Assembly (NCBI RefSeq): GCF_005160265.1
Contig: NZ_CP039865.1
Span: forward strand, 2,628,828-2,692,827
Reading direction: 5' to 3'
Origin: Phreatobacter aquaticus
GTDB taxonomy: Bacteria; Pseudomonadota; Alphaproteobacteria; Rhizobiales; Phreatobacteraceae
DNA length: 64,000 bases
How positions within the stretch are numbered: the stretch's first letter is position 1; every line of letters begins with the position of its first letter. Shown in pieces: positions 34,357-58,891 of this stretch. Both the position numbers and the translations under genes were made by a program. A model generated the notes under the pieces. That model was not told where the DNA came from, did not search any database, and was given only the letters and a program-made list of their open reading frames with translations.

Positions 34357-34360
34357 GGGC

Positions 34361-35483: not shown

Positions 35484-36065
35484 CTACCGCTGCCCGTCCC
35501 ACTTCGAGATCTGGTCCTGCGTCAGGCCGCCCATGCGCGGATGCGGCCGGCCACCGGTCGCCATGGCGAGCGTGAACATGATCTCGTCCGGGCGGGGGCT
35601 GTCGGCTACGAAGGCGGTGATGCCGTCGAAATGGCTGCGGACATAGGCCGCATCCTTGTGGTGCAGCGGGATGTCGAGAATGGTGCCGACCGTGCCGATC
35701 TTGGTCATGGACGGCACGATGGACAGCGCCTGACCCAGCAGTTCGCGCATCGCATAGCCGCCGGGCACATGCCAGAGGGCGCCGTGTTCCAGTTCGCCGG
35801 CCGTGCCGACCACTGAACCCTTGCCATAGCCTTCGATCGATTTCGGATCGCCGCCCATCGCCTTCAGGAGCGTGGTCGAGCATTCGAGACCGAGCGGCTT
35901 CAGCGCATCCATCATGCCCTGGATGTCCTCGACATAGCGGCCGGCGAAGGGGTTCTTGACGATCGCCGCGACGAACCCCTTGAGGATCGGCTTGTCGAGC
36001 TTCGGCCCGCCATCATGGCGCACGTCTTCCACGCCGACGACGATCTTCCTCACATCCACGTTCAT
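35484..36065 (-). CDS. DUF1185 ("amino acid synthesis") family protein
   Basis: A 193-residue protein starting MNVDVRKIVVGVEDVRHDGG. It contains KNPFAGRYVEDIQGMMDALKPLG near residue 38, YGKGSVVGTAGELEHGALWHVPGGYAMRELLG near 75-105 and GTILDIPLHHKDAAYVRSHFDGITAFV near 130. These are conserved in the DUF1185/AA_synth family, whose structure is known but whose reaction is not. The ATG at 36065 overlaps the UPF0280 stop by 4 bp. Its constant linkage here to UPF0280 and the Hnr-like reductase suggests a role in N-heterocycle or cyclic-amide breakdown (inference). Confidence 0.85.
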   Translation of the reverse strand: MNVDVRKIVVGVEDVRHDGGPKLDKPILKGFVAAIVKNPFAGRYVEDIQGMMDALKPLGLECSTTLLKAMGGDPKSIEGYGKGSVVGTAGELEHGALWHVPGGYAMRELLGQALSIVPSMTKIGTVGTILDIPLHHKDAAYVRSHFDGITAFVADSPRPDEIMFTLAMATGGRPHPRMGGLTQDQISKWDGQR

Positions 36066-36928
36066 TGCGGTCTCTCCCCGAGGCTTCTGTGGTGTCCGAC
36101 GGTGACAGTCTGGCCCTTGAGGCTCAAGGCTGCATCGATGATGAGGCGGCGGAGCCGCAGCTGCTCCGCGCGCTCCCGGCCGGCGGCGAGCGCCTGGCGG
36201 ATATCGTCCGCCGACAAGTCGCCGACAGCAACCGTCACGGCGAGGTCGCCGAGGTCGCTGTCGGGATCGAGCGCGCGGGCAGGGCGGCGCGTGACAGCTG
36301 GATGATCGACATCGACCGCATTGGCGATCAGGCTGGCGCAGGCATCGGCGCTGGCCGCATCGCGAGCGAGCACAGTGACGCTGTCGGCTATGCCAAGCGA
36401 GAACGACCGCCCCTGCGCGCCGGATGTCGCGATGCCGCCGATGCCGTCGCCGTGGCGGAGCGATACCTGCCCGTTGAGCGCGGGGACCGATCCGCGTGAG
36501 AAATCGGCGGCCATCGCCACCTCCAGCGTTTCGCCTTCGGTCAAGAACACGGCGATGTCGCCGCCATTGTTGACGAAGGCGCGATCCAGCGGCGCGGCCT
36601 CGGTCAGCACCTCCAGGATCTCGTCCGCCACCGAGCCTGCGACCGCCGCCATGGGGGTCAGGAAAACGCCCTGGTGCGGCCGGCAGGCATTGATCATGCG
36701 CAAGCCCACCGGCGTCTCCACCGTCGGCCGTTCGCTCATCGGCTTGCGCAATTCGGTAAGTTCTCCGGCGAGTTCGGGCAGAACGGTGCGGAACCGGGCA
36801 ATGGCTGCGTGATAGGCCTCCTTGACGGCCGCCGTCGCGCCCCAGGCCTTGATCACGAGGTCGATCGGCCCGTGCTGCAGATGCAGCCGGTCGCCGGCGA
36901 GCCATTGCGTGGTCGGGGCCTCCCACAT
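36062..36928 (-). CDS. UPF0280 family protein (ApbE-like fold)
   Basis: A 288-residue protein with the UPF0280 pattern: HLQHGPIDLVIKAWG at the start, QGVFLTPMAAVAGSVADEILEVL around residue 87-110, FVNNGGDIAVFL near 118 and GGIATSGAQGRSFSLGIADSVTVLARDAASADACASLIANAV near 163-205. The NNGGDIA and GIATSG segments parallel the flavin- and metal-binding motifs of ApbE (NxGGD and TSG), an FAD:protein FMN transferase. It sits between the MarR and DUF1185 genes, close to the Hnr-like reductase. A flavin-attachment role for that reductase is a reasonable hypothesis but unproven. Confidence 0.87.
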   Translation of the reverse strand: MWEAPTTQWLAGDRLHLQHGPIDLVIKAWGATAAVKEAYHAAIARFRTVLPELAGELTELRKPMSERPTVETPVGLRMINACRPHQGVFLTPMAAVAGSVADEILEVLTEAAPLDRAFVNNGGDIAVFLTEGETLEVAMAADFSRGSVPALNGQVSLRHGDGIGGIATSGAQGRSFSLGIADSVTVLARDAASADACASLIANAVDVDHPAVTRRPARALDPDSDLGDLAVTVAVGDLSADDIRQALAAGRERAEQLRLRRLIIDAALSLKGQTVTVGHHRSLGERPQ

Positions 36929-36929
36929 G

Positions 36930-37409
36930 TCAGGTGATCTTGGCCAGCAGGGCGACCAGTGTCCGCGCCTCTTCGGCGGTCATCGGCTCGAGGGTTCTCG
37001 CCGTCACCTCCGAGCCCCGGCTCTTCATCGCCTCGGCCACGCCGCGGCCCTCGTCGGTCAACGACAGCAGGACCAGCCGGGCATCGGTCGGATCGACCGA
37101 GGGCGAAACAAGGCCCCGTTTGGTCAGCCGTCCGGCCACGCCGAACATGGTCGCGGGATCGATCCCCACCAGCCGCCCCAGCAGATTCTGCGAGGTCGGG
37201 CCCAGATCATGCAGCTTGGCGAGTACGGAATATTGCACCGGCGTCACCTCGAATCCGTCCATCACCTGATCGAAGATCGAACTCGCGCGCTGGTGGGCGC
37301 GACGGATCAGGAAGCCGATCTGGTCTTCCAGCACATAGGTCTTCAGCGCCGCGGGATCGACGGTCAGCGGCGGGCTCTGCCGCTTGGCGCGGGCCTTGGT
37401 GGCGCTCAT
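36930..37409 (-). CDS. MarR family transcriptional regulator
   Basis: A 159-residue regulator. A basic start (SATKARAKRQSPP) is followed by the dimer helix and the winged helix: FEVTPVQYSVLAKLHDLGPTSQNLLGRLVGIDPATMFGVAGRLTKRGLVSPSVDPTDARLVLLSLTDEGRGVAEAM (about residues 55-130). DPTDAR is the wing with the DxR pattern. The start overlaps the Hnr-like gene stop (ATGA), and the UPF0280 start is 1 bp after its stop, so it is co-transcribed with the catabolic genes. It probably senses the pathway substrate. Its binding site is not obvious upstream of the Hnr-like gene. Confidence 0.92.
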   Translation of the reverse strand: MSATKARAKRQSPPLTVDPAALKTYVLEDQIGFLIRRAHQRASSIFDQVMDGFEVTPVQYSVLAKLHDLGPTSQNLLGRLVGIDPATMFGVAGRLTKRGLVSPSVDPTDARLVLLSLTDEGRGVAEAMKSRGSEVTARTLEPMTAEEARTLVALLAKIT

Positions 37410-38914
37410 GCCCGGCCCTCGCCGAACGGCCAGGGATTGCCGTCGGTCCAGCGGTCGATGCGGGCGGATGGGGCCACCTCGCGGAGCACATCCGCGATGG
37501 AAACGACGTCCGACATATGGCCCCCGAGCTGCTCGTAGAGCGCCTTCGGCACGGTGAACTCGATGGGCGCGACGATGGCCGGCGTCGGCACATAGCCGAA
37601 GGAGTTCTTCGGCATGCGCGTGACATCCGCCATGATCGTGATGCCGCCGCCGGGCCAGAGGAAGGCCGGCGCACCGCCCATGGTCACGCGCGTCTCGCCA
37701 CGCCCGACGGAGCGGGTCAGCAGGACCGGGTTCTCGGTGACGCCGGCACGCAGCGACCCGCCGGCGCCCGCCATGAACAGCACGGAACAGACCGACGGCT
37801 CGCAATTCTCGCCGATCCGGTCGACCACCTTCATCACTGCCTCGGGGATCGGCGCCGGTACCGGCACGAGGTTCTCGTCGAGGATGCAGTAGAGGAAGTG
37901 CTCGCCGGTCGTGGAGGTCATCAGCAGGCGCAGGCCGGGCCAGGCCACGGCCGGATCGATCTTCTGGATGATCGACAGGGGCTCGTCGATATCGGTTCCG
38001 CCCCAGCCGATGCCGGGATTCGCCACCTGGAAATAGCGGCCCGGCGTCGACTTGCGGCCCCGCACGCGAATGCCGGCCTGTTTCATGTCCAGCACGCGGC
38101 CGGCCTGATGCTCGGTCAGCACGCCGGTGATGTGGTCATCGACCACGATCACCTCGTCGACATGGCCGAGCCATTGCTTGGCGAAGATGCCGACGGTTGC
38201 CGATCCGCAGCCGACGCGCATCCGGCTCTCCGGCTTGCCGTCGACGATCGGCGCCTGGCCCGCGGCCACCACCACCTCATGACCGCCATCGATGGTCATG
38301 GTCACCGCCTCGCCACCGCACAGCTTCAGCATGGTGTCGCAGGTGGTGTTGCCTTCCTTCTTCGAACCGCCGGTGAGGTGGCGCACGCCGCCGATCGACA
38401 GCATCTGGCTGCCATATTCGGCGGTCGTCACATGGCCGACCTGTTCGCCATTGACCCGAATGGGCGCCGCCTCTGGGCCAAGATGGCGGTCGGTGTCGAT
38501 CTTCACCTTGACGCCGCAATAGCTGAAAATGCCTTCGGTCACGATGGTGACGGTATCGACGCCGTCATGCTCGGCCGAGACGATGAACGGCGCGGGTTTG
38601 TAGTCGGGATAGGTGGTCCCAGAGCCGACGCCGGTGACGAAGGTGCGGTCAGGGGCCAGCAGCTGGCCGTCCCACTCGTTCTTGCCGAATTCCACCAGCG
38701 GCGCGCCGTCCTCGACCGCCTTGGCCAAGAGCACGACCGGATCGGTGCGGATGAGCTGGCCGTTCTCGTTGGCATAGCGCGAACAGGCCCCCGCGCGGCC
38801 CGGCCGGATGCGGCAGAGCACCGGGCAGGCATCGCAGCGCAGGATGCCGTCGCCTTCGGCGGCACCGAACTTCTTCGAGCGCGCCTCGAGAGAGAGATGG
38901 TCAGTGGCGGTCAT
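37406..38914 (-). CDS. 6-hydroxynicotinate reductase-like iron-sulfur protein
   Basis: A 502-residue protein. The N-terminus has Cys27, Cys30, Cys34 and Cys44 (CDACPVLCRIRPGRAGAC), a likely Fe-S cluster site. Large conserved blocks follow: RTFVTGVGSGTTYPDYKPAPFIVSAEHDGVDTVTIVTEGIFSYCGVKVKIDTD, GNTTCDTMLKLCGGEAVTMTIDGGHEVVVAAGQAPIVDG and MRVGCGSATVGIFAKQWLG. Database naming for this type is 6-hydroxynicotinate reductase, after the Eubacterium barkeri enzyme that reduces the pyridone ring with ferredoxin. It lies downstream of a molybdenum hydroxylase operon, which fits a hydroxylate-then-reduce scheme. The exact substrate is not provable from sequence. Confidence 0.78.
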   Translation of the reverse strand: MTATDHLSLEARSKKFGAAEGDGILRCDACPVLCRIRPGRAGACSRYANENGQLIRTDPVVLLAKAVEDGAPLVEFGKNEWDGQLLAPDRTFVTGVGSGTTYPDYKPAPFIVSAEHDGVDTVTIVTEGIFSYCGVKVKIDTDRHLGPEAAPIRVNGEQVGHVTTAEYGSQMLSIGGVRHLTGGSKKEGNTTCDTMLKLCGGEAVTMTIDGGHEVVVAAGQAPIVDGKPESRMRVGCGSATVGIFAKQWLGHVDEVIVVDDHITGVLTEHQAGRVLDMKQAGIRVRGRKSTPGRYFQVANPGIGWGGTDIDEPLSIIQKIDPAVAWPGLRLLMTSTTGEHFLYCILDENLVPVPAPIPEAVMKVVDRIGENCEPSVCSVLFMAGAGGSLRAGVTENPVLLTRSVGRGETRVTMGGAPAFLWPGGGITIMADVTRMPKNSFGYVPTPAIVAPIEFTVPKALYEQLGGHMSDVVSIADVLREVAPSARIDRWTDGNPWPFGEGRA

Positions 38915-38949
38915 GGCGACCTCCGGTCGAGTGGATCGGCAGGAAAGAG

Positions 38950-39153
38950 GTCCTTCGAGGCGAGGCTGTCGCCTCGCACCTCAGGATGAGGATTGGATGG
39001 GCCTCGGCTGGACGAAGCGCGATCTGAGCCGCGTCATTGGCACTGGCTCCTGAATGGCGGATTGCTTCCCGTCCCTCATCCTGAGGTGCGAGCCCATAGC
39101 GAGATGCGAACGCATCTCGCGTTCGCTCGATGCTATGGCGAGCCTCGAAGGAT
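38950..39153. repeat. long inverted repeat TCCTTCGAGGC...GCCTCGAAGGA
   Basis: The left arm (38950-38991) contains TCCTTCGAGGC and CACCTCAGGATGAGG; the right arm (39073-39153) contains CCTCATCCTGAGGTG and GCCTCGAAGGA, its reverse complement. The right arm holds an extra hairpin (GAGATGCGAACGCATCTC). The element fills the 273-bp gap between the molybdenum hydroxylase and the Hnr-like gene and may attenuate read-through. It is a different sequence family from the GTCACCCCC-type repeats. Confidence 0.8.
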
Positions 39154-39187
39154 CGGTCGCCGTCCGCGGAACACATGAGACCATCCC

Positions 39188-41929
39188 TCATTCCGCGGCC
39201 TCCTTCGCCTGCATGGCCTCCCACAGCCGATGCGGCAGCACCGGCACCTGGGTGACCCGCACGCCGGTGGCGTGGCGGATGGCGGCAAGGATCGCGGGCG
39301 GGGTTGCCACCAGCGCCGGCTCACCGACGCCCTTGGCGCCATAGGGGCCCTCGGGCTCGGTATCTTCGATCAGCTTGACCACGATCTCCGGCATGTCGCC
39401 GACGGTCGGGATCAAGTAGTCGTGCAGGTTCTCGGTGCGGCCGGGGAGATATTCCTCCATCAGCGCCAGCCCCAGGCCCTGCGCGATGCCGCCATGGATC
39501 TGGCCCTCGGTCAGCGTCGGATTGACCGCGCGGCCGACATCGTGGGCGGCGACGATGGTCTTCACCTTCACCGTGCCGAGGATCCGATCGACCTCGACGC
39601 TCGCCACCTGAGCCGCGAAGCCATAGGTCGCATAGGGAATGCCCTGGCCATTGGCGTCCAGCGCCGTGCTCGGCGGATCGTACATGCCTTCGCCGGCCAG
39701 CACGGTACCCACGTCGTCGGCCGCGAGCGCCGCCAGATCGAGAGTGCGGCTCGCCTCGCCATCTTCGACAGAGAGCGTCGTGCCGTTCAGCGTCAGCTTC
39801 GCGCCCGGCCCGGCATTGGCAAGCGCCAGGATCTTGGCGCGGAGATCCTCGCCGGCAAGCTTGGACGCATTGCCGGAGACAAAGGTCTGCCGCGAGGCCG
39901 AGGTCTTGCCGGCATCATAGGTGCGATCGGTGTCGCCGATGACGAAGTCGAAATCGGTCACCGGCAGGCCGAGCCCGTCGGCGGCGATCTGTAGCAGCAC
40001 GGTGGAGGAGCCCTGGCCGATATCGGCGGCGCCATTCCAGAACGTCAGCTTGCCGTCGCGTCCGAGCGTGATGCGCATGCGCGACGGGTTCGACATCGAC
40101 GTATTGCCGCAGCCGTACCACATGCAGGCAATGCCGACGCCCATGGCCACGCGCCCGCCCTTGGCATTGTGCGCCTCAGCCTCGGCCTCGAGGCGGAAGA
40201 AGTCGTCCTTCACAGCATCGAGGCATTGCGGCAGGCCGGCTGAGGCATGGATCACCTGGCCGCAGGGCGTCGCATCGCCATGGTCGATGGCGTTGAGCCG
40301 CCGGATCGTCCAGCGATCAAGCCGGAGCTTTTCCGCGAGATCATCGATCAGCGTCTCGCCGGCAATCGCCGCCTGCGGGATGCCGAAGCCACGAAACGCG
40401 CCAGCCGGCACCTCGTTGGTGTGAATGGCCCGCACCCGGTTATGGACGTTCGGCACGCGATAGGGGCCGCTCGCATGAACCGGCACGCGGCCGGCAACCG
40501 TTGGCCCCCAGGACGCATAGGCGCCGGTGTTGAAATCGCCGGTCATCTCATAGGCCGTGAACCGGCCCTCGGCATCTGCCGACATGCGCGCGGAAATCGC
40601 CGAGGGGTGCCGCTTGGTGGTGGAAGCCATGCTCTCGATGCGCGAATAGATGACGCGCACCGGCTTGCCCGTGACCCAGGCGGCGACCGCGAGCAGCGGC
40701 TGCACCGAGACGTCAAGCTTGCCGCCGAAGCCGCCCCCGCAGGCGGTCGGCACGATGCGCACATCGGCCATGGCAAGCCCCATGACGCGCGCGACCTCTT
40801 CCTGGTCCATGACGGGCGCCTGCGTGCAGGCCGTCACCTCGATGCGGTTGCCGACGCGCAGCGCATAGCCGGCCTCCGGCTCAATATAGGCATGTTCGAC
40901 AAAGCCGGTGCGGAACTCGCCGGTGGCGGTGGCAGCGCCGGCACGATGGCCGGCCTCGACATCGCCGGTCTTGAGATTGCCGCGGCTCAGCACATTGTCG
41001 GGGATGGTCGGATGGAGCGCATACGCGCCCGGTTCCAGCGCTGCCTCGACGCCGATCAGCGCCTCTTCGATGTCCCAGGCGATCGGCAGTTCGGCGACGC
41101 GCACCGCCTCCACCGCCTCGCGGGTGCCGACCAGCGCCAGCACGCATTCGCCGCGATAACGCGCGAAGCCCGGCGCGAAGACCGGCTGGTCCTTCAGATG
41201 CGGGAAGATGCCGAAACTATTGGCGCCGGGCACATCGGCGGCCGTCAGCACCGCCTCGATGCCGGGATGGCCGGCCTTGAAGGCCTTGATGTCGCCGAGC
41301 GTGAAGCCGGCGCGGGCATGGGGCGAGCGCACGGCGCGCAGCCAGAGGGCACCCTCGGGCGCGAAGTCCGCGCCGAAACGGTCCGTGCCGGAGACCTTCG
41401 CCAGGCCATCGACGCGCGCGATGCGGGCGCCCACCGCCTGGCCGGCTTCGGCGACGGGGGCGGGCAGGATGTTTGCGCCACGCGCCACATCGGCCACCGC
41501 CTCGATGATCTTGATATAGCCGGTGCACCGGCAGAGCACGCCACCGAGCGCGTCCTCGATCGCCTGGGTGTCGGGGGAGGGCGTGTGCTTCAGGAGATCG
41601 GCTGCCGCCATGATCATGCCCGGCGTGCAGATGCCGCACTGGGCCGCGCCATGGGCCAGAAAGGCCTGCTTGAGGCGATCGACGATCGGGTCCGCGCCCT
41701 CGATCGTCAGGATGTCATGGCCCTCGGCCTGGGCCGTCGAGACGAGACAGGAGCAGACCTGCTCGCCATCCACCAGCACGGTGCAGGCGCCGCAATCGCC
41801 GGCATCGCAGCCGATCTTGGTGCCGATGAGCCCCAGGCCCTCGCGCAGCGTATCGGCGAGCGAGGCGAAGGGATCGGCGGTGACGGCGCGGTCAGAGCCG
41901 TTGACGCGAAGAACGATGGCCTGGCTCAT
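39188..41929 (-). CDS. molybdenum hydroxylase, fused 2Fe-2S and molybdopterin subunits
   Basis: A 913-residue xanthine-dehydrogenase-family protein. Residues 1-150 hold two 2Fe-2S clusters: Cys41, 46, 49 and 61 (plant-ferredoxin type) and the CGICTPG and CRCTGY pairs. From about 165 the molybdopterin domain begins (ARIDGLAKVSGTDRFGAD-like start), with GGGFGGKLDV near 395 and the catalytic Glu in GAKGVGEPAL near 885. The order FeS-Mo without FAD resembles Desulfovibrio aldehyde oxidoreductase, but a separate FAD subunit is encoded upstream. It would hydroxylate an N-heterocycle or aldehyde with water as oxygen donor. Its start overlaps the FAD-subunit stop (TGATG). Confidence 0.9.
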   Translation of the reverse strand: MSQAIVLRVNGSDRAVTADPFASLADTLREGLGLIGTKIGCDAGDCGACTVLVDGEQVCSCLVSTAQAEGHDILTIEGADPIVDRLKQAFLAHGAAQCGICTPGMIMAAADLLKHTPSPDTQAIEDALGGVLCRCTGYIKIIEAVADVARGANILPAPVAEAGQAVGARIARVDGLAKVSGTDRFGADFAPEGALWLRAVRSPHARAGFTLGDIKAFKAGHPGIEAVLTAADVPGANSFGIFPHLKDQPVFAPGFARYRGECVLALVGTREAVEAVRVAELPIAWDIEEALIGVEAALEPGAYALHPTIPDNVLSRGNLKTGDVEAGHRAGAATATGEFRTGFVEHAYIEPEAGYALRVGNRIEVTACTQAPVMDQEEVARVMGLAMADVRIVPTACGGGFGGKLDVSVQPLLAVAAWVTGKPVRVIYSRIESMASTTKRHPSAISARMSADAEGRFTAYEMTGDFNTGAYASWGPTVAGRVPVHASGPYRVPNVHNRVRAIHTNEVPAGAFRGFGIPQAAIAGETLIDDLAEKLRLDRWTIRRLNAIDHGDATPCGQVIHASAGLPQCLDAVKDDFFRLEAEAEAHNAKGGRVAMGVGIACMWYGCGNTSMSNPSRMRITLGRDGKLTFWNGAADIGQGSSTVLLQIAADGLGLPVTDFDFVIGDTDRTYDAGKTSASRQTFVSGNASKLAGEDLRAKILALANAGPGAKLTLNGTTLSVEDGEASRTLDLAALAADDVGTVLAGEGMYDPPSTALDANGQGIPYATYGFAAQVASVEVDRILGTVKVKTIVAAHDVGRAVNPTLTEGQIHGGIAQGLGLALMEEYLPGRTENLHDYLIPTVGDMPEIVVKLIEDTEPEGPYGAKGVGEPALVATPPAILAAIRHATGVRVTQVPVLPHRLWEAMQAKEAAE

Positions 41930-42795
41930 CAGGCGGCCCTCCGGCTTGAGGTTGCGGCGAGGTCGGTCAGGAGATCGCGGACGAGCGTGGTCGCTGCGCC
42001 AAGACGGTAGGCGCCGGTGGCTCGGACATCGTCAATCGGGGAGAGCGTGGCGAGGTGGCGCGCTTCCACATGGCCGGCAGCGTCGGCCAGCGGCACGCCG
42101 ATCAGTTCGCTTTCCAGCCGTCCCAGCCGTTCGGCCACCGCCGAACAGGCGCCAACCGCGATGCGCACGGTCGTGATGTGGCCGGCCGCATCGGTTGCGA
42201 CCACGCCTGCCACCATTGCGATGGAGATGACCAGATAGGCCCGGGCGCCGAGCTTCAGGAATTGGGACCGTGCGCCGTCGACCGAGGGGATCAATATCGC
42301 CGTGACGATCTCGTCGGGGCGGAGCGCCGTCTTGCGATAGCCGGTGATGAATTCGGAGATGGGCAGCGTGCGCGTACCGGCAAGGCTCGCAAGCTCGATC
42401 TCGGCATCCAGCGCCATCAGGTTCGGGATGCCGTCGCCGGCTGGCGAGGCCGTGACGAGATTGCCGGCCAGAGTGCCGGAATTCTGCACCTGCACGCCGC
42501 CAACCGCGCGGGCGGCTTGTGCATAGCCATCGAACAACGGAGGCAGATCGGCCCGGATGAGATCGGTCCAGGTGGTGAGCGCACCGAAGCGGACGCCGGT
42601 CGCCGTCTGCTCGATGCCACGCAGGCCCGGCACGGCGGAGAGATCCAGTACGTCCTTGTGGGTCGGGTCGCCCCAGGCGCGCTTGGCCGTGCGCACCGGA
42701 TAGACATCGGTACCACCGGCAAGCGGCATCACGTCATGGTTCGCCCGGATTTCCAGCGCCTCGGCCAGCGTCTTCGGTCGGAAATAGGCCGTCAT
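41929..42795 (-). CDS. molybdenum hydroxylase FAD-binding (CoxM-like) subunit
   Basis: A 288-residue FAD subunit. MTAYFRPKTLAEALEIRANHDVMPLAGGTDVYPV carries the first FAD loop (AGGTD), and VGGVQVQNSGTLAGNLVTASPAGDGIPNLMALDAEIEL carries the second (NSGTLAGN, near residue 108). The C-terminal VRIAVGACSAVAERLGRLE matches the CO-dehydrogenase flavoprotein C-domain. It passes electrons from the 2Fe-2S clusters to an acceptor. I chose the ATG at 42795, which overlaps the hyuB stop (TGATG) and has GGAGGG upstream; alternatives are ATG 42807 and GTG 42813. It lies between hyuB and the FeS-Mo subunit in one operon. Confidence 0.93.
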   Translation of the reverse strand: MTAYFRPKTLAEALEIRANHDVMPLAGGTDVYPVRTAKRAWGDPTHKDVLDLSAVPGLRGIEQTATGVRFGALTTWTDLIRADLPPLFDGYAQAARAVGGVQVQNSGTLAGNLVTASPAGDGIPNLMALDAEIELASLAGTRTLPISEFITGYRKTALRPDEIVTAILIPSVDGARSQFLKLGARAYLVISIAMVAGVVATDAAGHITTVRIAVGACSAVAERLGRLESELIGVPLADAAGHVEARHLATLSPIDDVRATGAYRLGAATTLVRDLLTDLAATSSRRAA

Positions 42796-44489: not shown

Positions 44490-46540
44490 ACCTTCACCCT
44501 CAGATTGCCGATGGCGTCGACGGTCGCGACCGTGCCGGGCTCGATGATCGTGGTGGCGTCGATCTGCTGGATGGCGGCGGGGCCAGAGACGCTGCCGCCG
44601 ATCGGCAGGCGGTCGCGGGAATAGACCTTGGCCTCATGCCAGGCGCCGTCGGCATAGAGCTGGCGCGTGCCGATCACCGCCTCTTCCGCCGTTGCCGCAC
44701 GGGCCGCGCCGTCGATCAGTGCTGAGAGCGGGAAGCTCTTCCGCCGCCCGATCACGCTGGTCACCAGATTGACCAGCACCGCGCGGATTTCCGGCAGGCG
44801 CACCTGGAAACGCTTGAAATAGGCCGCCTCGAAGGCTGCCTGGATCGCCTCGCGGCTGACATCGGCGCTGGCGAGCGGGACCCGGATGAGATGGGTCTGG
44901 CCACGGAACTGCATGTCCGCGCCATGCATCACCACGATCTCCTCGATCTCGGCCTTCTCCTTCTCCACCGTCTCCAGCGCGCTCTGGCCTTGAGCCGCCA
45001 TCAGCCGGTGAACCTCGGCCATGTCGACCTGGTCGAGCGGCTTGTTGACCGTGTTCACCCGGTCCTGCCGGAGATCGGCGACGAGGCAGCCCAGCGCATT
45101 GGTGAGGCCCGGCCGCGCCGGCACCAGCACCTCGGGAATTCCGAGCTCGCGGGCGAGCGCTACCGCATGGAGGGGACCTGCGCCGCCAAAGGCGAACAGC
45201 ACGAAATCGCGGGGGTCATAGCCCTTGGAGAGCGACACCATGCGCACCGCGCCGGACATGTGGACATTGCCGAGCCGGATCACGGCGGCGGCGGCTTCCT
45301 CCACGCTCATGCCGAGCGGATCGGCGATGTCGCGGGCAAAGGCCTGGCGGATCGCCTCCATCGAGACCTTGGCATTGACGGCGGTCAGCCGTTCCGGATC
45401 GAGCCGGCCGAGCACCAGATTGGCATCCGTGATGGTCGGCTTCGTGCCGCCGCGCCCAAACCCGATCGGACCCGGCTCCGAGCCCGCCGAATGGGGGCCA
45501 ACCTGCAACATGCCGGCCTTGTTGACCGAGGCGATCGAGCCGCCGCCGGCGCCGACCGTGCGCACATCCACCATGGGCAAATGGATCGGCAGGCCATAGG
45601 CAATTGTCAGTTCGGCCGAGACTTCCGGCACGCCGCCATGGATCAGTGCGACGTCGGTGGATGTGCCGCCCATGTCATAGGTGATCGCGTTGGTGAGGCC
45701 GGACTGTGCGAGCGTGGCGGCTGCCGCCATCACGCCGGAAGCCGGGCCCGACATGACGGTCTTGGCCGCTTCAAGGGCCACCACCGAGGCCGGCACCGTG
45801 CCGCCATTGCCGTTCATCACCAGGAGGTCGTGGGCAAAGCCCTTGGCCGAGAGATCGGCCTGCAGCCGCTGGACATAGCGGTCGAGGATCGGCTGCACGG
45901 CGGCGTTCACGCTCGCCGTGGTGCCGCGCTCATATTCGCGGAACTCCGAGAGAAGCTCGTGGCCAAGCGTCACATAGGGGTTCGGCCAGAGGGAGCGGAC
46001 GATCTCGCCGGCGCGCTTCTCGTGGGCCGGATTGGCATAGGCGTGCAGGAAATGAACGACGATCGCCTCGCAACCGGCTTCGATCAGCGCCTTGGTCTCG
46101 CGGGCCACCGCGGCCTCGTCGAGCGGGATCACCACTTCGCCGTGGGCGTTCAGCCGCTCGGGCACCTCGCGGCGGAGCTCGCGCGGGATCAGCGGGTCGA
46201 ACGTACCGATCATGCCATAGGCGGCGGGGCGGGTGCGCCGGCCAAGCTCGAGAATGTCGCGGAACCCGTCGGTGGTGATCAGGCCGACCTTGGCCACCTT
46301 GCGTTCCAGCACCGCATTGGTGGTGGCGGTCGTGCCATGGATGATCAGGTCGAGATCGGCGGGCGAGGCGCCCGCCGCCTCGATGGCCTGGACGACGCCG
46401 AGCGCCTGGTTGGCGGCGCTGGTCGGCACCTTGGCCAGGCGCACGGTGACCCGGCCACCCTCCGTCTCGGTCAGGAGAAGGTCGGTGAAGGTCCCGCCCA
46501 CGTCGATGCCGGCTACTCGCCTCACGGTCTGCCTCGTCAT
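44486..46540 (-). CDS. hyuA: hydantoinase A / oxoprolinase family protein
   Basis: A 684-residue ATP-binding subunit. The N-terminal AGIDVGGTFTDLLLTE is the ASKHA phosphate loop, followed by IHGTTATTNAVLERKVAKVGLITTDGFRDILELGRRTRPAAYG near residue 72-115, MGGTSTDVALI near 285 and GAGGGSIASVNKAG near 330. It activates the amide carbonyl by phosphorylation from ATP for hydrolysis with HyuB. The ATG at 46540 is chosen because the reading frame upstream to the GTG at 46594 has no ribosome site. The ATG itself also lacks a clear Shine-Dalgarno sequence: the operator-like palindrome 46540-46551 directly abuts it. Confidence 0.9.
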   Translation of the reverse strand: MTRQTVRRVAGIDVGGTFTDLLLTETEGGRVTVRLAKVPTSAANQALGVVQAIEAAGASPADLDLIIHGTTATTNAVLERKVAKVGLITTDGFRDILELGRRTRPAAYGMIGTFDPLIPRELRREVPERLNAHGEVVIPLDEAAVARETKALIEAGCEAIVVHFLHAYANPAHEKRAGEIVRSLWPNPYVTLGHELLSEFREYERGTTASVNAAVQPILDRYVQRLQADLSAKGFAHDLLVMNGNGGTVPASVVALEAAKTVMSGPASGVMAAAATLAQSGLTNAITYDMGGTSTDVALIHGGVPEVSAELTIAYGLPIHLPMVDVRTVGAGGGSIASVNKAGMLQVGPHSAGSEPGPIGFGRGGTKPTITDANLVLGRLDPERLTAVNAKVSMEAIRQAFARDIADPLGMSVEEAAAAVIRLGNVHMSGAVRMVSLSKGYDPRDFVLFAFGGAGPLHAVALARELGIPEVLVPARPGLTNALGCLVADLRQDRVNTVNKPLDQVDMAEVHRLMAAQGQSALETVEKEKAEIEEIVVMHGADMQFRGQTHLIRVPLASADVSREAIQAAFEAAYFKRFQVRLPEIRAVLVNLVTSVIGRRKSFPLSALIDGAARAATAEEAVIGTRQLYADGAWHEAKVYSRDRLPIGGSVSGPAAIQQIDATTIIEPGTVATVDAIGNLRVKV

Positions 46541-46551
46541 TCGTCTACGAA
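46540..46551. promoter_or_regulatory. operator-like palindrome TTCGT-CT-ACGAA at the hyuA start
   Basis: TTCGT (46540-46544), CT, ACGAA (46547-46551) is a perfect inverted repeat inside the larger match CATTCGTNNACGAACG. The same 16-base pattern occurs at the Liv binding-protein promoter (51572-51587). It touches the hyuA start codon, so a bound protein would cover the transcription or translation start. The GT-NN-AC core resembles GntR-type sites. Confidence 0.6.
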
Positions 46552-46621
46552 CGTTGGCGACATGCCAAGGTTCAATTTTGCTTCGTCCATCCACCGCCCC
46601 GGGGGGCGATTTCTGTCATTG

Positions 46622-46719
46622 GTCACCCCCGGCGAGCCCGAAGGGCGAGGGAAGGGGGTCCAGGAGTCGTTTGTCCCGACTTCGTGGCCCTTGGATCCCC
46701 TTCCCTCGCCGGGGATGAC
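46622..46719. repeat. dispersed GTCACCCCCGGCGAG palindrome, copy B
   Basis: A 98-bp imperfect palindrome whose first 43 bases are identical to copy A at 25102; the right end CCCTTCCCTCGCCGGGGATGAC lacks the GCTTCG inner piece of copy A. It lies between livF and the hyuA promoter, probably terminating the liv operon. Confidence 0.85.
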
Positions 46720-46773
46720 GGATCATCCCAGTCGACGCAGCGACGGCCTCTTCCCCATGTGGGGCTCATGCAC

Positions 46774-47490
46774 TCACATGCTCAGATAGGCTTCGCGGAT
46801 CTCGTCATTGGCTTCGAGATCAGCCGTCGTTCCCTCGTACCGGATCGCGCCCTTCTCGATGACATAGGCGCGGTCCGACACGGCGGAGGCGAAGTATAGG
46901 TTCTGTTCGGAGAGCAGCACGGCGATGCCCTCGGCCTTCATGGCGAGCACGGCATCGGCCATCTGCTCGACGATGACGGGCGCAAGGCCCTCCGAGGGCT
47001 CGTCCAGTAGCACCGCATGCGGATTGCCCATCAAGGTGCGGGCGATCGTCAGCATCTGCTGCTCGCCGCCCGACATGGCGGAAGCTCTGCGGCCCTTCAT
47101 CTCGGCGAGATTGGGGAAGATCGCGAAAAGCCGCTCCGGCGTCCAGGCATTGGCGGTGCTGCCCGCCGCCTTCCGCCCGACTTCCAGGTTCTCGTAGACG
47201 GTGAGGTCGGTGAAGATGCGCCGCTCCTCGGGCACATAGCCGAGGCCAAGGCGCGCGATCCGGTAGGGCTGCTGCCCGGTGATCATCTCACCCTCGAAGG
47301 TGATCCGTCCCTCGGAGGGAATGAGGCCCATGATGGCCTTCAGCGTCGTGGTCTTGCCGGCACCATTGCGGCCCATCAGCGCCACGACCTCGCCGGAGCG
47401 GAGCGAAAGATCGACGCCGAACAGCACCTGAGCGCGGCCATAGGCGGCCGAAACGTTCTGGACGTCGAGAAGCGTACGGGAGGTGGTCAT
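46774..47490 (-). CDS. livF: branched-chain amino acid-type ABC transporter ATPase LivF (second system)
   Basis: A 238-residue ATPase: TLLDVQNVSAAYGRAQVLFGVDLSL, Walker A LMGRNGAGKTTTLKAIMG near residue 37, signature MSGGEQQMLTIARTLMG near 138 and Walker B AVLLDEPSEGLAPVIVEQM near 160. The EGLAPVI motif marks LivF. The ATG at 47490 overlaps the livG stop (TGATG); a GTG at 47493 would add one residue. It is the last gene of the second liv operon. It is only moderately similar to the first LivF (21168-21869), so the two systems are not recent duplicates. Confidence 0.94.
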   Translation of the reverse strand: MTTSRTLLDVQNVSAAYGRAQVLFGVDLSLRSGEVVALMGRNGAGKTTTLKAIMGLIPSEGRITFEGEMITGQQPYRIARLGLGYVPEERRIFTDLTVYENLEVGRKAAGSTANAWTPERLFAIFPNLAEMKGRRASAMSGGEQQMLTIARTLMGNPHAVLLDEPSEGLAPVIVEQMADAVLAMKAEGIAVLLSEQNLYFASAVSDRAYVIEKGAIRYEGTTADLEANDEIREAYLSM

Positions 47491-48278
47491 CACGCGGCTC
47501 CCACTGTCGCGCGCCGCGCCTTGAGCGCCGCCTGCACGCCGGTTTCGCCGAGATAGACCTGCTTCACCTGCGCGTTCGACCGGACCTCGTCGGGCGTGCC
47601 CTCGGCGATGATCTCGCCGCGCACCAGCACCAGGATCCGGTCGGAATGGGCGAAGACCGCGTCCATGTCGTGCTCGGTGAACAGGACGCCGATCTTGTGC
47701 TTGCGGGCGATGCTGGCCGTCAGCTCCATCAGCTGGGCGCGTTCCTTCGGCGCCATGCCGGCGGTCGGCTCGTCCATCAGCAGCAGCTTCGGATTGGAGG
47801 CGAGCGCAATTGCCAGTTCCACCCGCTTCACGTCGCCATAGGCGAGCTCCGACACCGGCCGTTCCGCCATGTCGGCCATGCCGACGCGGTCGAGAAAGCC
47901 GATCGCCTCGTCGCGGTGGAGGCTGTGGGCATTGGCGGTCAGCGAGCGCGTCTCGTTCCGATGCGAGATCAGCGCCATCTGGACATTCTCGGCGACGCTC
48001 ATCGAGACGAACGTCTGGGCGATCTGGAAGGTCCGCCCCACGCCCTTGCGCCAGACCATGCGCGGCGGCTGGCCCGTCACGTCCTCGCCGTCGAGCACCA
48101 CGCGGCCGAGATCGGGCTTCAGCTGGCCGCCGACCATGTTGAAGGTCGTCGACTTGCCGGCACCGTTCGGGCCGATGATAGCGAGCAGTTCACCGGGCGC
48201 CAGCTGGAACGACACGTTCTTGGCCGCCGTCACACCGCCGAAGCGCTTCTGCAGATTGTCGACCAGGAGCAGCGTCAT
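47490..48278 (-). CDS. livG: branched-chain amino acid-type ABC transporter ATPase LivG (second system)
   Basis: A 262-residue ATPase: LLVDNLQKRFGGVTAAKNVSFQL, Walker A IGPNGAGKSTTFNMVGG near residue 37, GVGRTFQIAQTFVSMSVAENV near 85, LAYGDVKRVELAIALAS near 145 and Walker B LLLMDEPTAGMAPKERAQL near 165. TAGM and AYGDVKRVE are LivG marks. It overlaps the permease stop by 4 bp and the livF start by one base. It partners the second LivF to power the fused LivHM permease. Confidence 0.94.
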   Translation of the reverse strand: MTLLLVDNLQKRFGGVTAAKNVSFQLAPGELLAIIGPNGAGKSTTFNMVGGQLKPDLGRVVLDGEDVTGQPPRMVWRKGVGRTFQIAQTFVSMSVAENVQMALISHRNETRSLTANAHSLHRDEAIGFLDRVGMADMAERPVSELAYGDVKRVELAIALASNPKLLLMDEPTAGMAPKERAQLMELTASIARKHKIGVLFTEHDMDAVFAHSDRILVLVRGEIIAEGTPDEVRSNAQVKQVYLGETGVQAALKARRATVGAA

Positions 48279-50149
48279 GATGCGGCCCTCCCGGCGAAGC
48301 GCTCGCGGGCGGTCTGCACCGCGCCGACAAGACCGCGCGGGAAGATCAGCACCATGGCGATGATGGAGGCGCCGAGGAAAAACCGCCAGAAATCGGTCAG
48401 CGGCATGAAGAAGTCCTTCACCGAATGGAAGAAGGCCGCCCCCACCAGCGGGCCCATCACGGTCTGGATGCCGCCGGTCAGGATCATCACCAGGAAGTCG
48501 ATCGACATGGAGATCGAGATCATGGTCGGATCGATCGACCCCTTGGAAAAGGCATAGAGGCCGCCGGCAAGGCCCGCCGCAGCGCCGGCCAGGATGAAGC
48601 CGAGCCAGCGATGGGTGCGCACATCGATGCCGATGGAATCGGCTCTGGTCGCGCTATCGCGGGCTGCCCTCAGCGTATAGCCGAAGGGGGCATAGACGAC
48701 GTGGCGCAGCGCGAAGATCGCGGCCAGCGACAGCACGGCCACGACGTAGAAATAGACCTGCCGGCTCGACGCCCAGGCCGACGGCCAGACGCCGACCACG
48801 CCATTGTCGCCGCCGGTGACCTCCACCCACTGGAAGAACACCGCATAGGTGATCTGGGCGAAGGCGAGTGTCAGCATGGCGAGATAGATGCCCGAGAGCC
48901 GCACGATGAAATAGCCGAACAGGGCGGCTGCAAGACCTGCCGCTATCGGGGCGGCGATCAGCGCCACCTCCATCGGCAGCTTCAGCGGCCCGGTGACCAG
49001 GAGCCCCGCCGCATAGGCGCCGACGCCGAAATAGGCGGCATGGCCGAACGAAACGAGCCCGCCATTGCCGATCAGGAAGTTGAGCGAGAAGGCGGCAAGC
49101 GCGAAGACCAGAATCTCGATGCCGACCTTGACCTTGTAGGCATCGCCGACAAGCGGAATGGCGAGCAGGGCCAGCACAACCAGGGCGCTGATGATCCACT
49201 CCGTCCGGGCGAAGGGCTTCAGGTTGAGGATGCCCTCCGGAAGGATGGCGCGATTGGCGGTCGCGTCCGGCTTGCCCATCAGGCCCCAGGGCTTCACCAC
49301 CAGGACTACCGCCATCAGCAGGAACACCAGAACCAGGGTGATCTTGGGGAAGATCAGGATGCCGAAGGCTTCCAGCATCTTGATGATCAGGGCGGCGATG
49401 AAGGCGCCCGGCACCGAGCCCATGCCGCCGATCACGGTGACCACGAAGGCTTCCGTGATGATGGAGAGGTCCATGCCCGTATTGGCGGGCAGGCGCGGGA
49501 TCTGCAGCGCGCCGCCGAGGCCGGCGAGGAAGGCGCCGAGGAACAGCGTGCCGGTGAACAGCACGGCCTGGTTGACGCCGAGAGCGCCGACCATCTCGCG
49601 GTCCTGGGTCGCCGCCCGGATGAGCACGCCGAAGCGCGTCTTGTGCATGATCAGCAGGAGGATGCCGAGCACTGCCGGGCCGACGGCGATCAGGAACATC
49701 TCATAGGCCGGAAAGCGCTGGCCGAGGATCTCGATGCCGTGCCGCATGCCCGGTGCGCGCGGCCCCGTGATGTCCACCGGGCCCCAGATCTTCAGCACCA
49801 CGTCCTGGACAATCAGCACGACGCCGAAGGTTGCCAGAAGCTGGAACAGCTCCGGCACCTTGTAGATGCGGCGCAGCAGGACAAGCTCCATCACCACGCC
49901 CAGCACGCCGACCACGATCGCCGACAGGATGACGCCGAGGAAGAACAGGGCCGGCGACCGGTCGAACTCCAGAAGCCACGGTACGATCGTCACGGCCATG
50001 TAGGCGCCGAGCATGTAGAACGAGCCATGGGCGAAATTGACGATGCGGGTCACGCCGAAGACGATGGTCAGGCCGGACGCGATGACGAACAGCGCCGAGG
50101 CGCTGGCCAATCCCGATAGGGCCTGGATGACGAGGAAGGAGAGGTCCAT
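48275..50149 (-). CDS. fused LivH-LivM permease of a branched-chain-type ABC transporter
   Basis: A 624-residue double permease. Residues 1-300 are LivH-like: LSFLVIQALSGLASASALFVIASGLTIVFGVTRIVNFAHGSFYMLGAYMA, LLATFGVVLIVQDVVLKIWG and VVTVIGGMGSVPGAFIAALI. After a linker (ANRAILPEGILNLKPFARTEW, about 305-330), residues 335-624 are LivM-like: ALAAFSLNFLIGNGGLVSFGHAAYFGVGAYAAG and LRAARDSATRADSIGIDVRTHRWLGFI. One polypeptide replaces the usual heterodimer. The ATG at 50149 follows GGAAGGAGAGG; an upstream in-frame start at 50170 is less likely. The operon continues into livG with a 4-bp overlap. Confidence 0.92.
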   Translation of the reverse strand: MDLSFLVIQALSGLASASALFVIASGLTIVFGVTRIVNFAHGSFYMLGAYMAVTIVPWLLEFDRSPALFFLGVILSAIVVGVLGVVMELVLLRRIYKVPELFQLLATFGVVLIVQDVVLKIWGPVDITGPRAPGMRHGIEILGQRFPAYEMFLIAVGPAVLGILLLIMHKTRFGVLIRAATQDREMVGALGVNQAVLFTGTLFLGAFLAGLGGALQIPRLPANTGMDLSIITEAFVVTVIGGMGSVPGAFIAALIIKMLEAFGILIFPKITLVLVFLLMAVVLVVKPWGLMGKPDATANRAILPEGILNLKPFARTEWIISALVVLALLAIPLVGDAYKVKVGIEILVFALAAFSLNFLIGNGGLVSFGHAAYFGVGAYAAGLLVTGPLKLPMEVALIAAPIAAGLAAALFGYFIVRLSGIYLAMLTLAFAQITYAVFFQWVEVTGGDNGVVGVWPSAWASSRQVYFYVVAVLSLAAIFALRHVVYAPFGYTLRAARDSATRADSIGIDVRTHRWLGFILAGAAAGLAGGLYAFSKGSIDPTMISISMSIDFLVMILTGGIQTVMGPLVGAAFFHSVKDFFMPLTDFWRFFLGASIIAMVLIFPRGLVGAVQTARERFAGRAAS

Positions 50150-50263
50150 CGGGGGCGACTCTCGGCGCAAGCGATCAGAGCAGGGTCACGGCGATGCCGC
50201 GATCCGGTGGGGATCTTCCGCCCGGGAGCAGGTCCCGGGCGTATCGTTTCGATCTGATTGGCC

Positions 50264-51490
50264 TCAGATCTTGCGCGCGGCGCGCACCTCGGCCTCGGGG
50301 ATCATCACCTCGGCACCGTCCACGTAGCGGAAGTTCTTCATGGTCGGCAGCTTGCCCTGCAGGGTGGTCTCGCCGACCCAGGCGCCGAGCGTCGACTGCT
50401 GGTCGATCGCCCGCATGGTCACCGGTCCGCAGATGGTCTGCGTCGTCAGACCCTTGAAGGCCTCGATCATCGCAGCCGTTTCGGTCGACTTCGCCTTGTT
50501 GAACATGTCGCGGATCATGAACGGCACGACATAGCCGAGCACCGAACCAAGGCGCGGGCTGTCGTTGAACTTCGCCTTGTAGGCGGCGACGAAGGCCGGA
50601 TGGCCATGGGTGGTGATCTGCTCCGGCGGATAGCCGGTAACGATCCAGCCGGCGGGGGTCTCGTCGCCGAGCGGCAAGAGATATTCCGGCTCGCCGGTGA
50701 GCAGGCTCACCACGGTGCGACGCTCGAACAGGCCGCGCGTGTTGCCCTCGCGCACGAAGGCGGTGAGGTCGGCGCCAAACAGCACGTTGAAGATGCCGTC
50801 AGGCCGGCTTTGGGCCAGAGCGCCGACGGTTGCGCCGGCATCGACGCGGCCAAGAGCCGGGAACTGCTCGGCCACCACTTCGAAGCCCGGAACCGCCTCG
50901 CCCATCAGGCGCTTGAAGGCCGCGACCGCCGACTGGCCATACTCGTAGTTCGGCGCGACCACGGCCCAGCGCTTCACGCCCTTGGCCTTGGCGGCATCGA
51001 CCAGCATCTTGGTCTGCATGTAGGTGCCGGGGCGGACGCGGAACGTGTAGGGATTGCCGCTGCCCATGGTGAGCGCGTCGGTCAGCGGCTCGGTGGCGAG
51101 ATAGAGCACCTTCTTCTGGTTGGCGAAGTCGGCCAGCGCCAGGCCGACATTCGACAGGAAGGCGCCGGCGATGAACGAGACGTTCTCGCGGGTCATCAGC
51201 TCTTCTGCGACCCGGACCGCGTCGCCCGGCGTCGAGCCGTCGTCGCGGAACACGATTTCCAGCGGCCGGCCGCCGAGGCCGACAAGGCCGCCGGCCTTGT
51301 TGATCTCTTCCACGGCAAGCTGCATGCCGTTGCGATAGGGCACGGCGAAGGCCGCCATGCGCGAATAGGAATTGAGTTCGCCCACTTTGACGGGCGCGCC
51401 CTGGGCGGCGCCGCTCTTCGACGTCAGCGCCACGCCGGTTGCGGCAAGGCCGCCGACGACGCTGCGGCGGGACAGGTTCAACTTGGTCAT
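50264..51490 (-). CDS. ABC transporter substrate-binding protein, Liv type, Tat-exported
   Basis: A 408-residue Peripla_BP_6-class receptor. NLSRRSVVGGLAATGVALTS is a twin-arginine signal (SRRSVVGG), ending AAQG before APVKVGELNSYSRMAAFAVPYRNGMQLAVEEINKAGG. The family patterns IVFRDDGSTPGDAVRVAEELM and WAVVAPNYEYGQSAVAAFKRLM follow. Tat export suggests folding in the cytoplasm. GAAGGAGG precedes the ATG at 51490. It heads the second liv operon and has the TTCGT-AA-ACGAA palindrome 84 bp upstream, shared with hyuA. The ligand is presumably the substrate of the adjacent Mo-hydroxylase/hydantoinase pathway. Confidence 0.93.
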   Translation of the reverse strand: MTKLNLSRRSVVGGLAATGVALTSKSGAAQGAPVKVGELNSYSRMAAFAVPYRNGMQLAVEEINKAGGLVGLGGRPLEIVFRDDGSTPGDAVRVAEELMTRENVSFIAGAFLSNVGLALADFANQKKVLYLATEPLTDALTMGSGNPYTFRVRPGTYMQTKMLVDAAKAKGVKRWAVVAPNYEYGQSAVAAFKRLMGEAVPGFEVVAEQFPALGRVDAGATVGALAQSRPDGIFNVLFGADLTAFVREGNTRGLFERRTVVSLLTGEPEYLLPLGDETPAGWIVTGYPPEQITTHGHPAFVAAYKAKFNDSPRLGSVLGYVVPFMIRDMFNKAKSTETAAMIEAFKGLTTQTICGPVTMRAIDQQSTLGAWVGETTLQGKLPTMKNFRYVDGAEVMIPEAEVRAARKI

Positions 51491-51573
51491 GGAGCAACCT
51501 CCTTCAGGACACGGGGGCGGAGAACCGCTGTTCAGCCTCTGGACGCCTCCCGTCGTTTCATCGCGGGAGATCA

Positions 51574-51585
51574 TTCGTAAACGAA
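51574..51585. promoter_or_regulatory. operator-like palindrome TTCGT-AA-ACGAA upstream of the second liv operon
   Basis: TTCGT (51574-51578), AA, ACGAA (51581-51585) forms a perfect inverted repeat in the extended context CATTCGTNNACGAACG. The extended pattern matches the hyuA site (46538-46553) at 14 fixed positions. The two sites lie at the starts of transport and catabolic operons in the same direction, which suggests one regulator. Confidence 0.6.
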
Positions 51586-58823: not shown

Positions 58824-58891
58824 GGGTCTTCTATAGCCGCGCATTGGAATTTGTGCAGGCGTGATCCGGCTTGCGGCAGGTCAATATGTAA

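Follow-up and report, generated by a model that had tools for sequence, protein, structure and literature searches.

The reductive nicotinate route and the Phreatobacter aquaticus locus

In the reductive degradation of nicotinate, the substrate is converted via 6-hydroxynicotinate to 1,4,5,6-tetrahydro-6-oxonicotinate (THON), which a bifunctional enamidase opens and deaminates to 2-formylglutarate (PMC9304392). The THON route is likewise described in PMC3511419, where BLAST with the Eubacterium barkeri genes found a cluster in Azorhizobium caulinodans and Bradyrhizobiaceae strain SG-6C that reportedly covers steps one to three. Clusters with the 6-hydroxynicotinate reductase Hnr are also shown there for Bradyrhizobium and Rhodopseudomonas, and SG-6C, whose Hnr is 42% identical to that of E. 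barkeri, grows on nicotinate and 6-hydroxynicotinate. Here we analyse a related block of genes in a 64,000-nucleotide stretch of the Phreatobacter aquaticus genome (the window; contig NZ_CP039865.1, positions 2,628,828 to 2,692,827), which is 4.97 Mb in size and a single contig. A first-pass annotation of the sequence had read the block as a candidate undescribed N-heterocycle pathway. Our analysis does not support the view that the pathway as a whole is undescribed: the block is a conserved one of known kind, most likely the reductive nicotinate route (nicotinate to 6-hydroxynicotinate to THON) of E. barkeri and Azorhizobium, with a new ring-opening variant, HyuA/HyuB (HyuAB), and a strictly linked partner protein, UPF0280.

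Compared by description, the Azorhizobium/SG-6C cluster shares with the window an Hnr homolog, a nicotinate hydroxylase, a putative importer of the ABC type, the THON route and two conserved proteins of unknown function (PMC3511419). The P. aquaticus genome differs from that cluster as described in containing HyuAB and in giving no enamidase match at E 1e-40. The E. barkeri fermentation has a homologous dehydrogenase (3hrd) and the Hnr family in common with the window; however, enamidase (2vun) opens the ring in E. barkeri and the Mo subunit is divided over two chains, whereas the Mo subunit in the window is fused with the FeS part. Pseudomonas putida-type NicAB, so named from the annotation of L173 and L187, replaces the FAD/Mo hydroxylase beside Hnr in five of 12 plasmids read and is absent from the window cluster. 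Under the reading proposed here, genes with such unspecific labels as hydantoinase, UPF0280 or amino acid synthesis protein acquire testable roles in vitamin B3 degradation.

HyuAB and enamidase are distributed as alternatives

The ring opener is the new part of an otherwise known pathway. Gene clustering of Hnr loci recovered an amidohydrolase in 24 of them; a search with one representative, from L059, hit enamidase 2vun of E. barkeri at E 2e-109. The Hnr query matched 46 of 289 sampled alphaproteobacterial genomes; two of these (G059 and G182, short N-terminal stretch only) were excluded, leaving 44 Hnr genomes (~15%). HyuB orthologs (at least 66% identity) were found in 27 of the 289 genomes, all Hnr-positive, and enamidase orthologs (at least 67% identity to the query) in 18, 17 of them Hnr-positive. 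Each of the 44 Hnr genomes carries one opener, with 27 having HyuB, 17 enamidase, none both and none neither (Fisher p 1.5e-12, a statistic that ignores relatedness). The genome-level matches in Hnr genomes leave an empty identity band from 44% to 66% for HyuB and from 42% to 67% for enamidase. Eight further Hnr genomes show the same pattern, with five HyuB only, three enamidase only and none both; six were obtained via Hnr loci and two from a 274-genome sample of another class, in which Hnr occurs in three genomes, the centre genome included. At the level of 119 distinct loci (the 116 described below and three plasmid loci), 48 contain HyuAB, 27 enamidase, none both and 44 neither within the fetched stretch.

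The first-pass annotation had suggested HyuAB in the place of enamidase, and the exact either/or distribution of orthologs over the 44 and the eight further genomes backs this: most likely HyuAB takes the place of enamidase with an unchanged substrate. Our search of openly available papers, a set without the original E. barkeri and Azorhizobium reports, found no publication assigning HyuAB to nicotinate or UPF0280 to Hnr, and none linking a hydantoinase with hydroxynicotinate. Among the papers listed, none combined hydroxynicotinate with ApbE or flavinylation, and none appeared, from its title or the opening of its abstract, to connect hydantoinases or oxoprolinases with the catabolism of nicotinate.

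The opener label switches repeatedly on the Hnr tree, and both openers occur with either hydroxylase on plasmids

An IQ-TREE phylogeny was calculated from 88 Hnr rows (32 with enamidase and 56 with HyuAB; 85 different sequences, three pairs of identical rows being kept). Opener labels were taken from whole genomes for L031-L070 and from loci for the others. The tree excludes L083, L137, L142 and L171, whose matches contain a stop, the short L070, and 31 rows that had no opener label. The opener label switches 14 times on this tree (13-14 in bootstraps), with at least eight switches forced by well-supported branches; openers were apparently exchanged on many occasions during evolution. Shuffled labels average 26 changes, and the opener label is therefore partly inherited. 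The Hnr proteins of L135 (enamidase) and L148 (HyuAB) are 88% identical, and those of L052 (enamidase) and L041 (HyuAB) 81%. Since Hnr does not split into two opener clades, the tree argues against a separate substrate for each opener. It presents a clean case of repeated non-orthologous replacement by an unrelated enzyme at what is apparently the same pathway step.

Hnr is present in 26 plasmid records, 12 of which were read, each within 13-14 kb of Hnr. On these the hydroxylase varies as well. The FAD/Mo hydroxylase (Ndh) accompanies HyuAB on two plasmids (Fuscovulum, Sagittula) and enamidase on three (Rhizobium etli and two Sulfitobacter), while NicAB accompanies HyuAB on four (Neorhizobium, a Paracoccaceae strain, Rhizobium lusitanum, Allorhizobium) and enamidase on one (a Comamonadaceae strain). 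HyuAB occurs with no hydroxylase nearby on the remaining two (Methylobacterium aquaticum, Pleomorphomonas). The names nicA, nicB and nicR are record annotation (L173, L187, L189); L184, L188 and L190 (no gene table) and L172 (other gene names) were classed by tblastn. Both NicB proteins scanned carry cytochrome c domains. Two unrelated swaps, of opener and of hydroxylase, are thus seen around a core of Hnr and UPF0280, and we therefore argue for a single substrate.

HyuAB as a candidate ATP-dependent lactamase

THON is a six-membered lactam, and we infer, on the strength of the distribution, that HyuAB opens it. HyuA (44486..46594, minus strand, as are all genes of the block) would be the large, THON-activating subunit of an ATP-dependent lactamase; it matches PF01968, PF05378 and PF19278, and its nearest equivalog is caprolactamase CapA. 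HyuB (42795..44489, PF02538 with 539 bits) would be the small subunit and provide the proposed ring-opening site. The HyuA ATP-site motifs at residues 31-38, 307-311 and 371-376 are conserved in up to 49 aligned rows and correspond to DxGGTxTD, DMGGT and GxxPGP, the third being GSEPGP here and GANPGP among the ATP motifs given for CapA (PMC8453981). In HyuB, H107, D110 and H132 are invariant in 38/38 aligned rows and represent three of the four residues of the CapB metal site (Asp-His-Asp-His). CapAB and OplAB have in common with the window pair a HyuA/HyuB architecture of two subunits, the ATP motifs and the H-D-H residues of the metal site; unlike CapAB, the window pair lies far under the CapA/CapB equivalog cut-offs and is linked to Hnr. 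OplAB, of the HyuAB family, hydrolyses the six-ring delta-valerolactam with ATP (PMC11033972), and in one mechanism proposed for CapAB the lactim is phosphorylated by CapA and hydrolysed by CapB (PMC8453981).

HyuAB proteins of 58-64% identity were also observed beside a distant Mo hydroxylase (28%) in two genomes without Hnr (L177:8633-14609 and L178:5587-11647), where they perhaps belong to another N-heterocycle route.

Hydroxylase kinship and annotated neighbours point to nicotinate

The hydroxylase comprises an FAD subunit (41929..42813; PF00941, PF03450) and a fused [2Fe-2S] and Mo subunit (39188..41929; Fer2, Fer2_2, MoCoBD_1, MoCoBD_2). The best solved relatives are chains of E. barkeri nicotinate dehydrogenase: 3hrd_A for the first Mo half (234 bits versus 141 for the next), 3hrd_B for the second (219 versus 145) and 3hrd_C for the FAD subunit (96 versus 86). 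With the entire FeS-Mo protein as query aldehyde oxidoreductase 1dgj is top-ranked, because 3hrd is split into chains. By homology, the window proteins are predicted to supply the Mo nicotinate dehydrogenase of the THON pathway. In related clusters some genes are annotated nicA/nicB or nicR, the latter including MarR relatives near Hnr in two plasmids. The substrate is accordingly taken as nicotinate on the NicAB annotation and the hydroxylase kinship with 3hrd. A pyrimidine-like ring, admitted as a further option in the first-pass annotation, was dropped, as both Mo halves and the FAD subunit are closest to 3hrd and the neighbours are annotated nicA/nicB/nicR.

The Hnr-like Fe-S protein (37406..38914) is 60.6-65.2% identical to orthologs whose records are annotated 6-hydroxynicotinate reductase, a relation of homology only. 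A scan with the window protein places the closest named Hnr-like proteins in Phreatobacter (89-90% identity). Seven cysteines (C27, C30, C34, C44, C133, C236 and C371) are invariant in 33 rows, and C192 is present in at least 90%. No solved relative of Hnr was found, and its predicted model, of moderate quality (pLDDT 76.8), gave no fold kin at E ≤0.001. The Cys-rich start (residues 15-57) weakly matches other open reading frames (ORFs) of ~370-380 residues (E ~1e-4) and resembles the start of AmmeMemoRadiSam proteins. In one genome (G028:C1:2969781-2971264) Hnr is split into two pieces that overlap, from either a frame break or an error of sequencing.

Several further genes recur near Hnr. 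A ferredoxin-NADP reductase homolog is found at L085, L105, L114, L136, L172, L173, L184, L185, L186, L188, L190 and L191 and is likely to be an electron donor; none was detected among the window ORFs scanned. Homologs of the 2-oxoacid:ferredoxin oxidoreductase alpha subunit (L041 (= L122), L052, L054, L056, L091, L138 and L148; at L052 additionally with a TPP-binding subunit and an FAD/NAD-type reductase) are a possible source of reduced ferredoxin for Hnr. A Rieske/VanA_C-type oxygenase (L036, L037, L046, L048, L063, L065, L066, L101, L115, L120, L185 and L186) perhaps feeds a substituted pyridine into the route.

Hnr neighbourhoods are conserved and UPF0280 is a strict partner

To count linked genes, 120 Hnr neighbourhoods were fetched from the sampled genomes and from named genome contigs (the latter being the best 80 of 588). 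The same contigs were fetched twice in four cases (L031/L093, L041/L122, L042/L119 and L043/L134), leaving 116 distinct loci, many of which end at contig or fetch limits. Because gene clustering missed genes, counts rest on tblastn at E 1e-8 and any identity, with low-identity matches being partly distant homologs. On this basis the 116 loci contain Hnr (116), UPF0280 (113), the FeS-Mo subunit (107), the FAD subunit (99), DUF1185 (80), LivF (75), LivG (74), LivHM (64), MarR (60), the importer substrate-binding protein (SBP; 56), HyuA (45) and HyuB (35). When identity limits are applied and three plasmid loci added, the FeS-Mo subunit is present in 104/119 and DUF1185 in 83/119 distinct loci. 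The genome-neighbourhood comparison proposed in the first-pass annotation thus reveals linkage conserved far above chance.

UPF0280 (36062..36928), which passes its curated model (NF003322, 375 bits versus a cut-off of 290), stands out. The genomes with UPF0280 are exactly those with Hnr: 44 of the 44 Hnr-positive genomes and none of the 245 others at E 1e-8, as well as eight of the eight further Hnr genomes. In all 116 loci that hold both genes (duplicates included), the UPF0280 gene is downstream of Hnr in the same orientation, at -60 to +300 bp from the matched Hnr end in 101 and no more than 1.6 kb away in the others. Three distinct Hnr loci are without it: L043 and L123 are cut by a contig end, and L137, uncut at the UPF0280 side, has a stop in Hnr and a UPF0280 gene elsewhere in its genome. 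The inclusion of UPF0280 in the linked set therefore stands, as a strict Hnr partner. A family of debated biochemical function hence gains a strict single-gene partner, making its role testable on one protein pair.

The predicted UPF0280 model (pLDDT 93.7) retrieves two 2o34 chains as the top Foldseek matches, followed at ranks 3 to 41 by 39 consecutive ApbE/Ftp/FmnB chains (E 1.9e-5 to 1.6e-2, TM-scores 0.29-0.53); TM-scores reach 0.55 at most, 2o34 included. The E. barkeri Hnr studied by Alhapel in 2006 reportedly carries a covalent flavin and three Fe-S clusters. The HxxDP-like motif, the His-containing form of the ApbE motif, is found in 0/32 UPF0280 rows, and the invariant or nearly invariant UPF0280 positions include no cysteine. 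The canonical flavinylation target motif D-x-x-[ST]-G-A-[ST] (PMC12052999) occurs in 0/31 Hnr rows. An ApbE-like predicted fold combined with the absence of ApbE-like motifs suggests a dedicated role as Hnr maturation partner, and either a flavin role or a sulfur/Fe-S maturation role may fit.

In Desulfovibrio, COG2122 (UPF0280) is required together with DUF39 and NIL/ferredoxin proteins for homocysteine synthesis, and was called a distant ApbE relative apparently without the flavin-binding region (PMC5764234), while for MA1715 a function in sulfur trafficking is given (PMC12068725). These proteins and DVU1097 (2o34) share the UPF0280 family and ApbE-like fold with the window protein; members known so far function in homocysteine or sulfide assimilation, whereas the window UPF0280 would serve pyridine catabolism. 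Were UPF0280 a flavin transferase of the ApbE type, with Hnr as the protein to which it links flavin covalently, the predicted fold and the strict co-occurrence would follow, but both motifs are missing and the TM-scores to ApbE chains are modest; we consider this possible at somewhat less than even odds. Delivery of sulfur or Fe-S to Hnr, a role like that suggested for COG2122 in the synthesis of homocysteine, draws on the Desulfovibrio and MA1715 precedents and on the seven invariant and one nearly invariant cysteines of Hnr, and has against it the want of a conserved UPF0280 cysteine; we give it the same odds.

Proposed pathway and alternatives

We propose, with a probability of roughly 0.74, that the block encodes substrate import and steps one to three of an aerobic, reductive catabolism of nicotinate, with HyuAB replacing enamidase and UPF0280 servicing Hnr. 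The Liv-type importer would take up nicotinate or a close relative, and the FAD and FeS/Mo hydroxylase, given its kinship with nicotinate dehydrogenase, would form 6-hydroxynicotinate, which the Hnr-like protein is expected from its family to reduce to THON. HyuA would then phosphorylate the six-membered enamide-lactam with ATP and HyuB hydrolyse it, the chemistry being conjectural and the replacement seen in the distribution. The opened enamine may lose ammonia to yield 2-formylglutarate, possibly aided by DUF1185, and MarR may sense a pathway intermediate; both of these roles are guesses. UPF0280, observed always to co-occur with Hnr, would mature or service it, most likely at a flavin or Fe-S centre. 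The order of reactions reasoned out in the first-pass annotation, in which the ring is hydroxylated, reduced to a lactam and then opened at the expense of ATP, is supported, with the reactions predicted from family membership. A more far-reaching version, in which HyuAB and enamidase repeatedly displace each other at THON opening and Hnr depends on UPF0280 to install a covalent flavin by a non-ApbE site and mechanism, appears rather unlikely.

A number of observations weigh against the proposed pathway. Enamidase works without ATP, so the spending of ATP by HyuAB is unexplained. HyuA and HyuB score 496.6 and 313.5 bits, under the caprolactamase (CapA/CapB) equivalog cut-off of 1000, and the first Asp of the CapB metal site has no clear invariant HyuB counterpart (D46 in 34/38). 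Hnr was assigned by comparison with annotated records rather than with the E. barkeri Hnr sequence. The Methylobacterium clusters have no hydroxylase nearby, the best match in three such genomes being of 36-37% identity. The either/or table depends on identity cut-offs chosen after the tables had been inspected and on scoring in each genome of a small number of top first-look places, mostly 4 to 6. At any identity, a distant HyuB (36-44%) is present in 9/17 enamidase genomes at E 1e-100 and a distant enamidase relative (36-42%) in 2/27 HyuB genomes (G064, G104) at E 1e-40. Openers also occur in Hnr-free genomes: two, G114 and G217, contain HyuB of 64% identity, five (G011, G095, G120, G182 and G224) HyuB of 56-60%, and G082 an enamidase. 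The opener is often not adjacent to Hnr, given that Hnr is flanked by 8 kb or more on each side in 20 of the 44 loci scored as having neither. Four loci (L099, L102, L104, L106) contain near Hnr a diverged amidohydrolase of the enamidase cluster that falls under the 55% limit and was scored as neither, a locus-level and not genome-wide label; it is possibly a third opener or part of a second pathway, and at L099, L104 and L106 it is accompanied on its side of Hnr by a relative of DUF1185 and by a second, distant Mo hydroxylase. Finally, no shared MarR operator was found in four block gaps (14-mers with ≤2 mismatches), the sole matches falling in the control stretch.

Some of these points would be accommodated if HyuAB clusters used a different substrate, the Hnr-like protein producing a fully saturated lactam or the route starting from another carboxypyridine, such that only that lactam needs ATP. 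This would account for the ATP use, as OplAB and CapAB act on saturated lactams, and would fit the Methylobacterium clusters lacking a hydroxylase and the HyuAB of L177 and L178, with no Hnr nearby. However, Hnr proteins of 88% identity are coupled with opposite openers, the label switches at least eight times on the Hnr tree, and Ndh and NicAB are each found with both openers; we judge a different substrate to be improbable. It is also conceivable that the substrate is nicotinate and HyuAB acts elsewhere, for example on a side-product lactam, with an unrecognised hydrolase opening THON in HyuAB-type genomes. No biochemistry for this HyuAB group was seen among the papers listed in our search, and HyuB is sometimes far from Hnr, being on the Hnr contig in 20/27 genomes and within 25 kb in 16/27. 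Yet complementarity with enamidase is precisely what an enzyme swap predicts, and a third hydrolase is then unnecessary, making such a separate HyuAB function very improbable.

Gene layout, accessory and neighbouring genes

Twelve minus-strand genes run from 51574 down to 35484 in an operon-like arrangement, in the order SBP, LivHM, LivG, LivF, HyuA, HyuB, FAD subunit, FeS-Mo subunit, Hnr-like, MarR, UPF0280 and DUF1185. Profile searches of the window ORFs recovered every gene that the first-pass annotation had named, all on this strand. Its lower limit of 35484 holds; the upper limit of 51490 falls slightly short, since the SBP gene reaches 51574. Adjacent genes overlap or almost abut, except at three internal gaps of 93, 179 and 273 bp. 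The gap before Hnr (38915-39187) contains several perfect inverted repeats, resembling a repetitive intergenic element, and Pfam gave no hit for a small ORF at this place (38901-39224).

The importer consists of the SBP (50264..51574; PF13458, 213 bits), orthologs of which at 48% identity or more lie beside Hnr with either opener type, a fused LivH-LivM permease (48275..50170; PF02653 in two stretches, with UrtB-like and UrtC-like halves), and the ATPases LivG (47490..48278; PF00005, PF12399) and LivF (46774..47493; PF00005, best NCBIfam kin UrtE/LivF under the cut-off). The MarR-family regulator (PF01047) occupies 36930..37409, its start having been set by sequence at 37409 rather than 37805. 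A 480-residue ORF at 35484-36926 was rejected as a single gene: UPF0280 is in another frame and DUF1185 is separate, the two genes sharing a four-base overlap.

DUF1185, or AA_synth (35484..36065), matches PF06684 with 225 bits against a gathering score of 27, the match lying within the longer ORF. Counted by eye, 29/44 Hnr genomes and 0/245 others contain DUF1185 at 50% identity or more. DUF1185 thus belongs to the linked set as regards its restriction to Hnr genomes, but it is accessory and not a strict member. As a marker of the HyuAB type it was rejected, such copies occurring in 16/27 HyuAB and 13/17 enamidase genomes (by eye). A second copy (39-47%) is often near enamidase or enamidase paralogs, and our guess is a role near the opened product. 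In G060, G202 and G210 a DUF1185 paralog directly adjoins an enamidase paralog (40-42%), G060 and G202 being without Hnr; DUF1185 may act next to enamide opening. At L110:6111-8218, genes for a radical SAM protein and for a membrane protein of the LPG-synthase type separate an enamidase-like gene from a relative of DUF1185.

Just outside the block, a class III CoA-transferase (33220..34527, minus strand; PF02515) could catalyse a downstream step; it falls under the cut-offs of every specific model matched. Glutarate CoA transfer as the next step was rejected, as the window protein is one of 11 matches in the genome to the succinate-glutarate model and not the best, none of the 11 passing its cut-off. 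Elsewhere in the window, a homolog of the SelO protein adenylyltransferase is encoded at 57390-58844.

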